From the NCBI GenBank assembly GCA_009785555.1, contig WQWB01000005.1, positions 1 through 51,546 of the forward strand: a DNA stretch of 51,546 nucleotides, in the 5' to 3' direction. The translations under genes and the position numbers were made by a program. Below, in pieces: positions 10,470 through 30,552 of this stretch (the stretch's first letter is position 1; each line of letters begins with the position of its first letter). Under the pieces are notes generated by a model that did no database searches, was not told the DNA's origin, and saw nothing but the letters and a program-made list of their open reading frames with translations. This DNA is from Defluviitaleaceae bacterium. GTDB taxonomy: Bacteria > Bacillota > Clostridia > Lachnospirales > WRAX01.

Positions 10470-12116
10470 TTATTTATCCACAATCAATACCATAGGCGGG
10501 CAGGGGAAATCTACGTCTTGCAAAACTAAGCCGTTTTCCATTGCTTTGAGAGTAACAATCATATGCAGGTATGACATTGATTGTAAATATTGTTTTTGCT
10601 CCGGTACATTCGTTAGGTGCGGCGGCAACTTTATCTTTGTCCCATGAAGATGTTTTTTCATCAAGTCGAGGGTCGCGGGGATAAACTCATCACGCGCTTC
10701 ACTCGTTATTTTGCGGAGTTCGGCATATTCATCAGCAGACAATATCGGAATATCGACAATAGGCTTGCCGTTTTCGATATAAAGAACGCCACACTCCGCA
10801 AAGTGAGGTATGTTTTCGAAAAGCAACAGGTCGATGCCAGTATCGCACGGATTTATGCACTCGTTGATGATATACAGCATTTGTGCTATACCGTCATCAT
10901 TAAGCGTGAATAAGTGATTGTTTTTACTGCCGACGGTATAGTATCGTTTTTTCTCAAGCTCTGTATCAAAAACCTTAAAAATTATTTTTCTCGTACCAAG
11001 CCGGTTGTGTATTTCGTTTGTTCTTTCGCCTGACCAGCTATACTTGCGGTATCCGTTATCCTCGCTACTTTTGCCCATTGGGTGAGTGTTTCCCATAGCC
11101 ACCCATTTACCGCCGTTTGGGCGCTCGGGGTAGTCGTGCTTGGGATCATAAATTTTACTGCCCACGCCGAAAAAACAAACCGACATTGTGTTCATCAAGA
11201 AATAAAATTCAAGTTTTCGCTGTTTCCTTTTTGGTAAATTGACGAAGAAATCTGCCGTTCTTAATTTGTCGAGCCCACTTTGTAACGGCTTCCAGAATAA
11301 ATCGAAGTTATCATCTATCAACCCTATTTGCGATTTGATTTTTGCATCCGCGTCATCATGTGAATAGATAATAAAATCGGTATAGACTTTGTTTCCAACA
11401 CGCTTCATCAATTCCGCACTAACAAGAGTTTCGATAATTGACTCGATATAAGCCGTTGGTATGCCGATTGCTTTTGCAAGCTCGGTTTCCGTTACCGGCT
11501 TATCATAAGCCAATATCAAAAGGTTTTGTCCTATTATATTGTTATTTGTAAAGTTATACGGTTCACCGTTTATACCGGGTTCTCCGCTTATACCCACATA
11601 AAGTATTTGCGGTTCATAGCTGTTTTTTGTGTAATTTTCCATACCGTTAAATCCTTTCTTAATTTGCGTTCTGCTGCTGGATAGCCTGCTTTTTACCGTG
11701 CCGGTTGGGATATCTAAGGCTTTAGAAATATCTTCAACACTTTCGCCGTGGAGATAATAACGGACAATGACTTCGCGATATATGCGAGACAAAAAAGCAA
11801 TCTGTTTGCGGAGTTCTTCCGCTTCGCCAATATCGGTAATCGCTTCGATTTCGTTATCGGCGACTAACATGACCGCATTGTCGATACTAATGCTTGGGAG
11901 TTTGTATTTCCTGCGCAAGGCGTCGTAAAATTTTCGGTTCATTACGCTGGAGAGCCATGCCTTTATATCTCTTATTTCTTTTCTGCTTGCCAAGTAGTTG
12001 AGTGCGGCAAGCATGGTTTCTTGGCACAAGTCCTGTGCTTCGTCAAGGTTGCCGCATTTTTGGATAGCTACTTTCAAAAAATATTCAACGTAATCTTCAA
12101 GCTCTTTCGGCTTCAT
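10470..12116 (-). CDS. ECF-like sigma-70 factor with long C-terminal extension containing a winged helix
   Basis: The product has 548 residues from the ATG at 12116 (GAAGGG 9 nt upstream). Residues ~1-75 are sigma region 2 (AQDLCQETMLAALNY). Residues ~110-165 are region 4 (YREVIVRYYLHGESVEDISKAL, then GTVKSRLSSSRTQI). Around 215-275 follows a winged-helix-like segment (VTETELAKAIGIPTAYIESI), then ~270 residues that I do not recognise, with aromatic and Gly-rich stretches (GGKWVAMGNTHPMG, GYRKYSWSG). The tail could sense a ligand or act as built-in anti-sigma, but this is inference. Upstream lie a deletion copy of the structured repeat and an 18-bp palindrome, both candidates for regulation. 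The gene is alone in its transcript. Confidence 0.8.
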   Translation of the reverse strand: MKPKELEDYVEYFLKVAIQKCGNLDEAQDLCQETMLAALNYLASRKEIRDIKAWLSSVMNRKFYDALRRKYKLPSISIDNAVMLVADNEIEAITDIGEAEELRKQIAFLSRIYREVIVRYYLHGESVEDISKALDIPTGTVKSRLSSSRTQIKKGFNGMENYTKNSYEPQILYVGISGEPGINGEPYNFTNNNIIGQNLLILAYDKPVTETELAKAIGIPTAYIESIIETLVSAELMKRVGNKVYTDFIIYSHDDADAKIKSQIGLIDDNFDLFWKPLQSGLDKLRTADFFVNLPKRKQRKLEFYFLMNTMSVCFFGVGSKIYDPKHDYPERPNGGKWVAMGNTHPMGKSSEDNGYRKYSWSGERTNEIHNRLGTRKIIFKVFDTELEKKRYYTVGSKNNHLFTLNDDGIAQMLYIINECINPCDTGIDLLLFENIPHFAECGVLYIENGKPIVDIPILSADEYAELRKITSEARDEFIPATLDLMKKHLHGTKIKLPPHLTNVPEQKQYLQSMSYLHMIVTLKAMENGLVLQDVDFPCPPMVLIVDK

Positions 12117-12167
12117 AAACTTTACCCTTCGTAGTTTTGCTTTTGATATCAGTCCGCAATTAAATAC

Positions 12168-12210
12168 GTACTTAGCTCGCGCGACTAAGTGCGTTTCGCT
12201 CACTAAGTAC
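12168..12210 (-). repeat. Structured repeat element, internally deleted copy C
   Basis: Read on the minus strand it starts GTACTTAGTGAGCG and ends CGCGAGCTAAGTAC. Both ends match the full copies at 17121 and 30122 (12 of 13 bases at the 5' end and about 20 of 24 at the 3' end against the 30122 copy), but the ~85-nt middle is absent. The ends pair perfectly over 8 bp (12168-12175 with 12203-12210). It lies 51 nt ahead of the sigma-factor start on the same strand. Confidence 0.65.
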
Positions 12211-12229
12211 AATTTTTAAATGTGGATAC

Positions 12230-12247
12230 ATATGAACGCGTTCATAT
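12230..12247. promoter_or_regulatory. 18-bp perfect palindrome, possible operator
   Basis: The sequence ATATGAACGCGTTCATAT is fully self-complementary, as expected for a dimeric HTH protein site. It lies 114 nt upstream of the sigma-factor start. Which protein binds it is unknown; autoregulation by the winged-helix part of the sigma factor is one possibility. Confidence 0.4.
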
Positions 12248-12326
12248 ATAAGTCGCAGATTTTATGGCTTGGTTCAGTGGTTAGGAAAAATATTTTTTCG
12301 GGTTTATGCGCGGTAAATGTGTCGTA

Positions 12327-12351
12327 GCTATTTTACGAACATTCCTCTATA
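12327..12351 (-). repeat. Degenerate copy of the TATAGAGGAAT-N7-AAATAGC motif
   Basis: On the minus strand this reads TATAGAGGAAT, seven other bases, AAATAGC. The same two blocks at the same spacing occur at 17053 and 43805. It lies upstream of the sigma-factor gene and its element C, just as the 17053 copy lies upstream of element A. Confidence 0.4.
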
Positions 12352-12391
12352 TACTAAGGTGCGCGTTGCTTTTTTTGATTTTAACAACAAA

Positions 12392-12432
12392 ACAAAAAGC
12401 ACGTCCTTCAGCCAAGGCCACTAGACGTGCTT
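12392..12432 (-). terminator. Intrinsic terminator of the lipoprotein gene
   Basis: AAGCACGTC (minus strand from 12432) and GACGTGCTT (to 12397) form a 9-bp stem, followed on the minus strand by TTTGTTTTG. It ends the transcript 20 nt after the lipoprotein stop. Confidence 0.8.
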
Positions 12433-12451
12433 CTATCGATGTAATTAATTA

Positions 12452-12814
12452 CTATCTGCGGCGGAAAACGGAGTAGAAATCGCCTTCGTACATGTAGAGG
12501 AATCTGCCGTCGATTCTGATTCTGCTTGTTTCAACCGTGCCGTCTTCCATTTCAACGGTGAGGTATTCGCCGTCTTCGGACCAATCAAGGTCTACTGAAA
12601 TGTCAATTCCCATAAAGCTCATTTCGAAACTACCTGAACCGCCGCGGTTGAAGATGAAGGTCATTGTCGTTCCTTCTAATTCTTCTAACGCTTCTGCTCT
12701 GGTTTGGTCTTGGTCTCTGTAGAACTCCCATGTGCCAACGATGCCGCGGCTGCAACCAACCAGCATAACCAGGGTAATAACAAGTGCTATCCCTGCAAGT
12801 ACTCTTTTTTTCAT
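12452..12814 (-). CDS. Small lipoprotein with lipocalin-like / DUF5640-like repeat pattern
   Basis: The 120-residue product has a lysine-rich start, a hydrophobic core and a lipobox LVGC (Cys at ~21), so it is an exported lipoprotein. The mature part starts SRGIVGTWEF and alternates short beta-strand-like segments with acidic turns (LDWSEDGEYLTVEMEDG), like small beta-barrel 'stress lipoproteins'. It has a paralogue at 26411 sharing GC-x3-IVGTWEF. Function unknown. AAAGGAG precedes the ATG, and a perfect consensus promoter lies 38 nt upstream. Confidence 0.8.
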   Translation of the reverse strand: MKKRVLAGIALVITLVMLVGCSRGIVGTWEFYRDQDQTRAEALEELEGTTMTFIFNRGGSGSFEMSFMGIDISVDLDWSEDGEYLTVEMEDGTVETSRIRIDGRFLYMYEGDFYSVFRRR

Positions 12815-16978: not shown

Positions 16979-17015
16979 AAGGCTGGGGAGTGAATTTAAG
17001 TTCCGCGGCCTTTTT
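16979..17015 (+). terminator. Intrinsic terminator
   Basis: AAGGCTGGGGA (16979-16989) pairs with TTCCGCGGCCTT over 11 positions with one mismatch, and TTTTT follows directly. It closes transcription coming from the GH4 gene and insulates element A and the AraC-type gene. Confidence 0.75.
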
Positions 17016-17052
17016 AATATTAATACTCAAGTAAAATTTGTATAGGATATGA

Positions 17053-17081
17053 TATAGAGGAATTACTTTGAAATAGCAAAA
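17053..17081 (+). repeat. 29-nt repeated motif, copy 1
   Basis: The 29 bases beginning TATAGAGGAATTACTTTG are identical to 43805-43833, and a 25-nt degenerate copy lies at 12327-12351 (minus). It sits 40 nt upstream of structured element A. Function unknown. Confidence 0.6.
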
Positions 17082-17120
17082 CAGGAGTAGCGGTGGTAAT
17101 TTATCTATGTTAGAATAATT

Positions 17121-17287
17121 ATAGCGTAATGAAGTTAAAACAGTTACATAGTGAGCGGATAGACCCTTTTGTTTGCTTCGTAAACGGCCGGGTGGCACTC
17201 CGCGTTGCTGCGCAATTGGCAAACGAACTTGAGCTCCAGCGTACTTTGAGCGCGAACTTTGTAACTGTTTAAGTCTCATTTAGCTAT
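17121..17287 (+). repeat. Structured repeat element, full copy A (possible RNA leader or small mobile element)
   Basis: The ends (17128-17147 and 17261-17280) form a long imperfect stem, best in CAGTTAC with GTAACTG. The middle contains 52 nt (17183-17234) identical to copy B at 30184-30235, including GGGTGGCACTCCGCG and an inner hairpin CGTTGC...GCAAACG. Copy B's end stem is CTGCTAC/GTAGCAG: the bases differ but pairing is kept, which argues for selection on structure. The element ends 26 nt before the AraC-type start on the same strand, so it is likely to lie in its leader. I do not recognise it as a named riboswitch or RNA family. Confidence 0.7.
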
Positions 17288-17313
17288 GCATCAAGTTAAA
17301 GGATGGGATACGG

Positions 17314-18315
17314 ATGGAATATATAACGGTAATCCAGTCGGTTTTGGATGAAATCGACCGCAGGATTACGGAAAAAATCAAAGTTGACGAGTTGGCACGC
17401 GCGGCTAACTATTCGACTTACCATTTCTGTCGGGTGTTTTTGGCTCTCACTGGGACGCCGGTTATGAACTATGTAACCCGACGTAAACTTGAGTATGCCC
17501 AGCATGACCTGTCTCGGGGCAAAAGGATTATTGAAGTTGCGATGGACTATGGATTTGATACCCATGCGGGCTTCGCGAAGGCGTTTAAAAAATGCTTTGG
17601 CTTTCCGCCGTCTTTGTGCCGTTTGCGTTTCAAAAACGAATTGCCCCAAAGAATGACGGTCAACAACCTGAAATTAAGACATGGAGGATTTATTATGACC
17701 CCTTACATTACAGTTGCGACGCCGTTTATTGTAGCTGGAAGAACGAACCGCCACAAGATGCCGAACGTAAGAACCACCGCCGATATCCCTGCATTTGATT
17801 TTGACGAAGTAAGGTCAGGTGTCCACGATCTACTTGATGGCACGTCCAAGTTGTTCAGCAAATCCGACGCGATCAAACATTGCGAAATTGAAATGTGTTA
17901 CGATGTCGATGAGGACTCCGGCGAGTTTACCTATTTCGCCGGCCGCGGCATCTTCCACGCGGATGATTTGGAGAATATCTTGCCGGATATGGAGAGCTTT
18001 GAGGTCAGTGGCCTGTACGCGATATTTACGACACCTCTCTCGCCTTTCGAGCAAAGGGAGCAGTCAGCTAAAACCATACGGGATACGTGGCAATATATTT
18101 TTGCAGAGTGGCTTCCAAATTCTGAGTTTGAATACGATGAAACGCGCAGGGATTTTGAGTTTCATGACAATAAATGCCACGGGTGGTATTTCGACTGTAA
18201 AAAGCAGAGTGAAATCCATATCCCTATCCGCCAATGCGAGGACGCAAGGATACAATCCCAAAATAAAATGAAAACCCTTTGGGAAGAGGAAATGAAGCGC
18301 CGAGAAGGAATATAA
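17314..18315 (+). CDS. AraC-family regulator with GyrI-like effector domain
   Basis: The product has 333 residues. The N-terminal ~110 form two AraC-type helix-turn-helices (VDELARAANYSTYHFCRVF and IIEVAMDYGFDTHAGFAKAF, then FGFPPS). From about residue 135 to the end is a GyrI-like/AraC effector-binding domain, which usually binds small, often lipophilic or antimicrobial molecules. GGATGGGAT precedes the ATG. Structured element A lies immediately upstream. A terminator follows the stop, so the gene is monocistronic. The neighbouring MntP-like exporter gene could be a target, but nothing in the sequence proves this. Confidence 0.9.
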   Translation: MEYITVIQSVLDEIDRRITEKIKVDELARAANYSTYHFCRVFLALTGTPVMNYVTRRKLEYAQHDLSRGKRIIEVAMDYGFDTHAGFAKAFKKCFGFPPSLCRLRFKNELPQRMTVNNLKLRHGGFIMTPYITVATPFIVAGRTNRHKMPNVRTTADIPAFDFDEVRSGVHDLLDGTSKLFSKSDAIKHCEIEMCYDVDEDSGEFTYFAGRGIFHADDLENILPDMESFEVSGLYAIFTTPLSPFEQREQSAKTIRDTWQYIFAEWLPNSEFEYDETRRDFEFHDNKCHGWYFDCKKQSEIHIPIRQCEDARIQSQNKMKTLWEEEMKRREGI

Positions 18316-30121: not shown

Positions 30122-30288
30122 ATAATATAATGAAGTTAAAACTGCTACTTAGTGAACGGACGGATCCTCTTGTTTGCTTCGCTAACGGCCGGGTGGCACT
30201 CCGCGTTGCTGCGCAATTGGCAAACGAACTTGAGCGGTAGAGTACTTTGTACGCGAGCTTAGTAGCAGTTCAATCTTCATTCAGCTAT
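30122..30288 (+). repeat. Structured repeat element, full copy B
   Basis: Same architecture as copy A at 17121. The inner 52 nt (30184-30235) are identical, and the end stem is CTGCTAC (30142-30148) with GTAGCAG (30262-30268), plus an outer AATGAAG/CTTCATT match. Compared with copy A, three base pairs of the end stem have changed on both sides. It lies 42 nt upstream of the MerR-like gene on the same strand. A frame through it codes for the start of a short peptide but ends at a TAG at 30238, unlike copy A, so coding is not the conserved property. Confidence 0.7.
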
Positions 30289-30330: not shown

Positions 30331-30552
30331 ATGGATAAACTCTATAACTTAAAAGAAGCCGCAAAAAAGGTGAATTGTTCGCGCAAAGACCTTCGCGATT
30401 ACCACAGGAGCGGGTTGGTTGCCGGTGAATATTCCGGCGGGGAACTGTGTTTTTCGGAATCTGTCCTTAACGATTTCATTTCGCGGTTCGCTCAAATCGA
30501 AAAAATGAAGGCCGACGCAAAGGCGGGCGCAAGGCGCATGGGGATGATGTAA
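30331..30552 (+). CDS. MerR/excisionase-like small DNA-binding protein
   Basis: The 73-residue product is a single MerR-type helix-turn-helix and wing (LYNLKEAAKKVNCSRKDLRDYHRSGLV, in two parts). It lacks the dimerisation helix and effector domain of full MerR regulators, so it resembles excisionases and small SinI/AlpA-type regulators. AGGAGG lies ~13 nt before the ATG. Structured element B is directly upstream. Confidence 0.7.
   Translation: MDKLYNLKEAAKKVNCSRKDLRDYHRSGLVAGEYSGGELCFSESVLNDFISRFAQIEKMKADAKAGARRMGMM

Follow-up and report, generated by a model that had tools for sequence, protein, structure and literature searches.

Element C and the sigma-factor gene

The window (the whole 51,546-nt stretch of Defluviitaleaceae DNA analysed here) corresponds to contig C5 in a draft genome of 1.69 Mb (109 contigs, 83.7% complete), whose 57 searched relatives included no genus mate. 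Its minus strand carries a sigma-70 family gene (10470–12116; 548 aa, with regions 2 and 4 and a long extension at the C-terminus), and upstream of this gene lies element C, an 82-bp imperfect palindrome (12149–12230, minus strand), classed here as a putative shortened C-type MITE upon its fold, its likeness to the sister copy C17, and its TA-flanked termini, which are common to 7 other C-type copies. The sequence-only reading had drawn a 43-bp element at 12168–12210, minus strand, closed by a perfect 8-bp end stem and situated 51 nt 5' of the ATG at 12116. That stretch, its position and the stem (GTACTTAG/CTAAGTAC) are all present, and the stretch does belong to a real repeat; its edges and its parentage had to be redrawn. 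The alignment with the C17 copy runs beyond both 43-bp edges, so the full element is 82 bp, and the 8-bp stem lies inside it, with the real termini 19–20 bp further out.

In 5' to 3' order on the minus strand, the element comprises the left outer arm (TGTATCCACATTTAAAAATT, 12211–12230), part-decayed relative to the consensus CGTATCCGCAATTAAAATT; the left inner arm (GTACTTAGTGAGCG, 12197–12210), made up of the 8-bp stem, GA (a tandem G.A step) and GCG; the right inner arm (CGCGAGCTAAGTAC, 12168–12181); and the right outer arm (GTATTTAATTGCGGACTGA, 12149–12167). TA is found beside the left (5') end at 12231–12232 and beside the right (3') end at 12147–12148.

A perfect 18-bp palindrome, ATATGAACGCGTTCATAT (12230–12247; 0.02 matches expected from shuffles), adjoins element C, and the C18 copy, also before a sigma gene, adjoins the perfect palindrome ATATCAGCTGATAT (L083, around 1505–1530); both look like operators. 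A sigma-70 scan of 12050–12460 returned neither a promoter nor a terminator. The sequence TGAACC-N15-CGAC, which we take to be an ECF-like promoter motif, is present upstream of element C (12276–12252, minus strand) as the sole match of this pattern in the window, and a promoter at that site would put element C within the leader of the sigma gene. The approximately 390 residues that follow region 4 of the sigma factor gave no confident Pfam match (weak TrmB), and no relative was retrieved when the sigma protein was used to search for related loci.

Two types of copies in the genome

DNA, pattern and covariance searches located 19 copies in the source genome, in unrelated surroundings, i.e., 10 of A-type and 9 of C-type. 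The A-type copies are the two long forms of the window, element A (17122–17286, plus strand, 165 bp; TA at left and TG at right) and element B (30123–30287, plus strand, 165 bp; TA at both sides), together with C22, C10, C3 and C11 (164–165 bp), the shorter C8 (101 bp), C69 (88 bp) and C59 (82 bp), and C28, which is a partial end only. The C-type copies are C86 (165 bp), C26 (98 bp), C17 and C3b (97 bp each), element C (82 bp), C25 (64 bp), C23 and C18 (26 bp each), and the decayed C54.

The likeness of element C to the C17 copy is decisive (local alignment score of 93; best of 1000 shuffles, 30), whereas A and B show a modest resemblance to it, since 19 and 5 of 1000 dinucleotide shuffles, respectively, reached those scores (p 0.019 and 0.005). 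The outer ends differ between the types, TAGCGTAATGAAG.. in A and B vs CGTATCCGCAATTAAA.. in the sister (C) type, and those of element C are of the latter kind; the proposal that it was a third copy of A and B is thus contradicted. A covariance model derived from six long copies of the A-type matched element C from end to end (E 2e-4 within 34 kb), so the two types are related at a deeper level; it likewise gave whole-length matches to C3b (L018, E 1.4e-7), C17 (L002, E 4e-7) and C86 (L003, E 0.0055). The A- and C-types, judged from these alignments, have different outer ends and related inner parts. The 13-base 5' motif that had been used to join element C to A and B carries little meaning when taken alone: it had 10 matches in the window at up to 3 mismatches, vs 8.4 in shuffles.

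Folding and pairing of the arms

Folded as RNA, the full element C reached −27.7 kcal/mol (z −3.99), a value equalled by 0 of 200 shuffles; the fold with DNA parameters was weaker and not significant (z −1.45, 17 shuffles as good). In an alignment of 12 copies to the model, standard pairs occupied 358 of the 405 cells of the outer and inner stems, a count biased towards pairing because the alignment was fitted to the structure of the model. Double changes were found in 23 of the 35 pairs, mostly between the two end types. Inspection of the alignment by eye showed the GA step to be kept at the left in 12/12 copies and at the right in 10/12. Copies with both arms span 64–165 bp, with the arms, i.e., the terminal inverted repeats, paired. 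Paired change of this sort can come from selection for the hairpin, from one transposase reading both ends, or from template-switch correction of palindromes.

Shortened forms and decay

Long forms of about 165 bp and shortened forms occur in both end types. All of the delimited C-type copies, from 165 bp to 26 bp, have both TA-flanked termini, and the two 26-bp remnants keep one arm only. Element C is missing 16 bp that are present in the 97-bp C17 form, where they are bracketed by direct TGAGCG repeats. Replication slippage on a hairpin yields deletions between short direct repeats, and the 16-bp loss is as such slippage would give. The left outer arm of element C has in addition drifted (TCCACATTT in place of TCCGCAATT), so that pairs were lost there. 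The length series, the bracketed 16-bp loss and the lost pairs bear out the earlier view that the element is internally deleted and decaying; the companion suggestion, that function at this site resides in a retained end stem, is not supported, as the stem is not terminal and is absent from the smallest copies. The clean series of deletions, ending at 26 bp, illustrates the erosion of hairpin elements. Element C also cautions that the inner stem of an element can be mistaken for its end.

Insertion of a sister copy and the TA flanks

The C17 copy interrupts a gene which, from its sequence motifs, we take to be MazG-like: the left part of the protein reads MERFYKMVEASNKRFPEGVQP and the right part MATRLLEECGEVAAEINHW, followed by a frameshift. 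The 3' part was searched against 95 other genomes, and the orthologue in the one same-family genome that matched (L078) is continuous (MERFYQMARASNKRFPEGVQPYQMAARLLEECGEVAKEINHF). The gene is split by the copy and its orthologue is not; thus a C-type element inserted there, and the set is mobile. This comparison of an insertion with an uninterrupted site pertains to the sister copy C17 and not to element C.

TA was present at both sides of 8/8 delimited C-type and 7/9 delimited A-type copies (C28 and C54, which are not delimited, were left out of the count). If the C17 element is taken out together with one TA, the frame has one base more than that of the orthologue. The empty site is thus inexact, and TA could be part of the element ends rather than a target-site duplication. 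An IS630 relative in the same genome was looked for as a source of transposase, and no IS630-type DDE_3 domain was found in the 83.7% complete draft; draft assemblies often drop insertion sequences. Pattern searches using the ends revealed no long element with matching ends.

Genes facing the copies

Element A is followed by an AraC-type regulator (17314–18315, plus strand) and element B by a 73-aa HTH_17/MerR-like protein (30331–30552, plus strand), the latter upon a weak Pfam match (HTH_17, E 0.0014, below its cut-off). Within the window it therefore holds, with that weak call for B, that all three elements precede regulators in the same orientation. Genome-wide, 16 copies face the start of a protein gene, and 7 of these genes are regulators: those after A (AraC), B (HTH_17/MerR-like), C11 (AraC), C69 (HTH_11), element C (sigma), C26 (AraC) and C18 (sigma). 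The C26 copy is reversed relative to its AraC gene and lies about 215 bp away. The remaining nine genes are folD, recQ and murA together with those for an ABC transporter, a permease, a MATE pump, a capsule-synthesis protein, an unknown secreted protein and one unknown protein. The three copies that face no protein gene lie between convergent genes, inside the MazG-like gene, and before a tRNA-like sequence (judged by eye). Several copies lie 18–43 bp before the start codon.

A first count from 15 copies had given 2/12 regulators without the founders (A, B and element C), i.e., no signal (p 0.34 at 10% background). With four copies added later, 4/13 of the gene-facing non-founders precede regulators compared to 4/56 background genes (Fisher one-sided p 0.036), a result that rests on very few copies; when a NusG-like gene was counted as a regulator the background became 5/56 and p 0.057, and when all 16 non-founder copies were taken (4/16) p was 0.067 (0.10 with the NusG-like gene). 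The background consisted of genes with at least 90 bp upstream: 14 from the window and 42 taken from six stretches of 20 kb. Of the latter, 20 were run against Pfam, and 22 were judged by eye from their first 45 residues. The AraC genes beside C11 (L010, 1772–3175) and C26 (L093, 1–1281) are related beyond the HTH (E 2e-19), so these two cases are not fully independent. A strong GC-rich hairpin, GGAACGCGCGTGC..GCACGCGCGTTCC, was noted in the leader between C26 and its AraC gene (L093, 1240–1500).

The tilt towards regulator genes is suggestive only, and the over-representation anticipated by the sequence-only reading is neither refuted nor established by these counts. The 7/16 tilt hints that insertion or retention may not be neutral. 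Insertion sequences in general are reported near regulator genes (PMC9208149), and few clear links to function classes are given for BOX, RUP and SPRITE (PMC3049150).

Searches beyond the genome

Neither type had a relative in the 57 family and order genomes, and the six-copy A-type model (R1) gave no match in 294 further genomes of the order. The pattern ACTTAGTGAGCG..CGCGARCTWAGT was found in 1/391 genomes of the class, which is the source genome, and in 14 contigs of genome_contigs; it gave 0 matches in viral_contigs, as did the A-type core pattern. A phage or plasmid origin was looked for and rejected, element C having no match in plasmids and element A none in the phage or plasmid collections. 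A curated RNA family was excluded by Rfam: 0/4227 models reached the gathering score for the window, with chance-level hits only at 12080–12300 and none at 17000–17400. Literature searches returned no paper describing the repeat. By these searches the family appears to be lineage-specific.

The inner module in Lachnospiraceae

The inner module, ACUUAGU-GA-GCG..CGC-GA-RCUUAGU, is a hairpin with a tandem G.A step, and it was located at 17 sites in 14 contigs of genome_contigs, 13 of them titled Lachnospiraceae, Pseudobutyrivibrio or Coprococcus and one Clostridium vitabionis. An alignment of twelve of the 17 sites gives a structured element with an outer stem, a three-way junction and a GNRA hairpin (model R2; L036, L040 and L043, which have a different fold, were left out, as were two near-duplicate sites from Pseudobutyrivibrio); 21/33 pairs show compensatory change, and the GNRA loop is present in 12/12. 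This element, of about 126 nt, was seen in L034, L035, L037, L038, L039, L041, L042, L044, L045, L046 and L047 (for example, L045 3155–3280; L035 4249–4503), and it forms divergent pairs, 4 to 229 bp apart, in L035, L037, L041 and L046. In Pseudobutyrivibrio, a fabK-like gene that precedes fabD has one copy on either side (gene names by eye). It had no match in Rfam, and our literature search found no paper on it.

R2 matched element C weakly (E 0.012), but this match is circular, the module having been the bait, and it was not counted. One might suppose that the inner module is a recognition structure shared across Clostridia, with one protein family reading both elements as members of a cross-family structured mobile RNA/DNA class; we regard this as speculative and quite unlikely.

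Origin of element C and competing explanations

Element C is probably a copy, shortened and in decay, of a palindromic, non-autonomous MITE that sits at TA sites. The family of copies, the form of their ends and TA flanks, the gene insertion by the sister copy, the pairing of the arms and the deletion series are observed, and together they point to this reading. A transposase acting in trans, which we infer, would recognise the inverted ends and insert the element at TA, at this locus upstream of the ribosome-binding site of the sigma-factor gene; slippage between short direct repeats, proposed because the element is a long hairpin, would then remove inner parts, here the 16 bp between the TGAGCG repeats. 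This order of events is our reconstruction. Weighing against the MITE reading are the negative DDE_3 search of the draft, the inexact empty site at C17, the tilt to regulators and the non-significant fold of element C with DNA parameters. If transcribed from upstream, element C would form a hairpin of about 80 nt in the 5' leader, ending 32 nt before the AUG, which could alter mRNA processing or have no effect on the sigma gene.

The same hairpin might instead have been co-opted, as has been reported for copies of ERIC and Correia: it would be retained before regulators because it tunes their expression through attenuation, mRNA stability or processing by RNase III/E. The tilt to regulators (7/16, or 4/13 without the founders vs 4–5/56; p 0.036–0.057), the several copies that lie shortly before start codons, and arm pairing kept through double changes would all suit such a role. 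However, nine copies face other genes (folD, recQ, murA, transporters and so on), orientation varies as shown by C26, the C11 and C26 cases are not fully independent, and one of the one-armed 26-bp remnants, C18, still sits before a sigma gene; moreover, IS elements in general tend to sit near regulators (PMC9208149). We consider co-option unlikely for element C. If the lean to regulators is true in more genomes, the family would offer a small test case for the retention of such elements as control switches.

Movement by a Y1 (RAYT) transposase, and not by a TA-specific DDE transposase, would make the element a REP/REPIN-like palindrome; this would likewise give palindromic hairpins at intergenic sites, and the failure to find DDE_3 in the draft agrees with it. 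But TA flanks, a length of 82–165 bp and terminal inverted repeats that are long and conserved are at odds with REPs, given as 20–40 bp in PMC3733652, and we judge this origin very improbable. Least credible, with scarcely any chance of being right, is the earlier reading of an internally deleted copy of A or B itself: the inner arms do match and core-less A-type copies exist (C69, C59 and C8), but the outer ends of element C are of the other type, matching C17, C26, C3b and C25, and its likeness to A and B is slight beside that to C17. The preferred MITE reading would add a lineage-specific family to those already described.

Comparison with known repeat families

Element C resembles ERIC, Correia/NEMIS and RUP in kind, and we do not claim membership in any of these families. 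Correia/NEMIS of Neisseria, as outlined in PMC2229807, are short palindromes with long terminal inverted repeats and TA at their ends, occurring as a long form that contains an internal core (about 155 bp) and a core-less short form (about 107 bp); in contrast, the family here is lineage-specific, and the likeness lies in the architecture. RUP of Streptococcus pneumoniae is a TIR element of about 107 bp at TA sites, thought to be mobilised by IS630-Spn1 according to PMC2229807 and PMC3049150, whereas no IS630-type transposase domain was found in our incomplete draft. ERIC/RU-1 of the Enterobacteriaceae is a TA-ended intergenic palindrome of about 127 bp with a single long stem-loop and shorter variants (69–127 in Yersinia pestis), according to PMC2267715; no sequence homology to ERIC was found, element C having no blastn match in 20,395 E. 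coli records. In their TA ends, inverted repeats, length of 82–165 bp, long and short forms and predicted transcript fold, the copies described here match what is recounted of ERIC, Correia/NEMIS and RUP in PMC2229807, PMC10969869 and PMC2267715.
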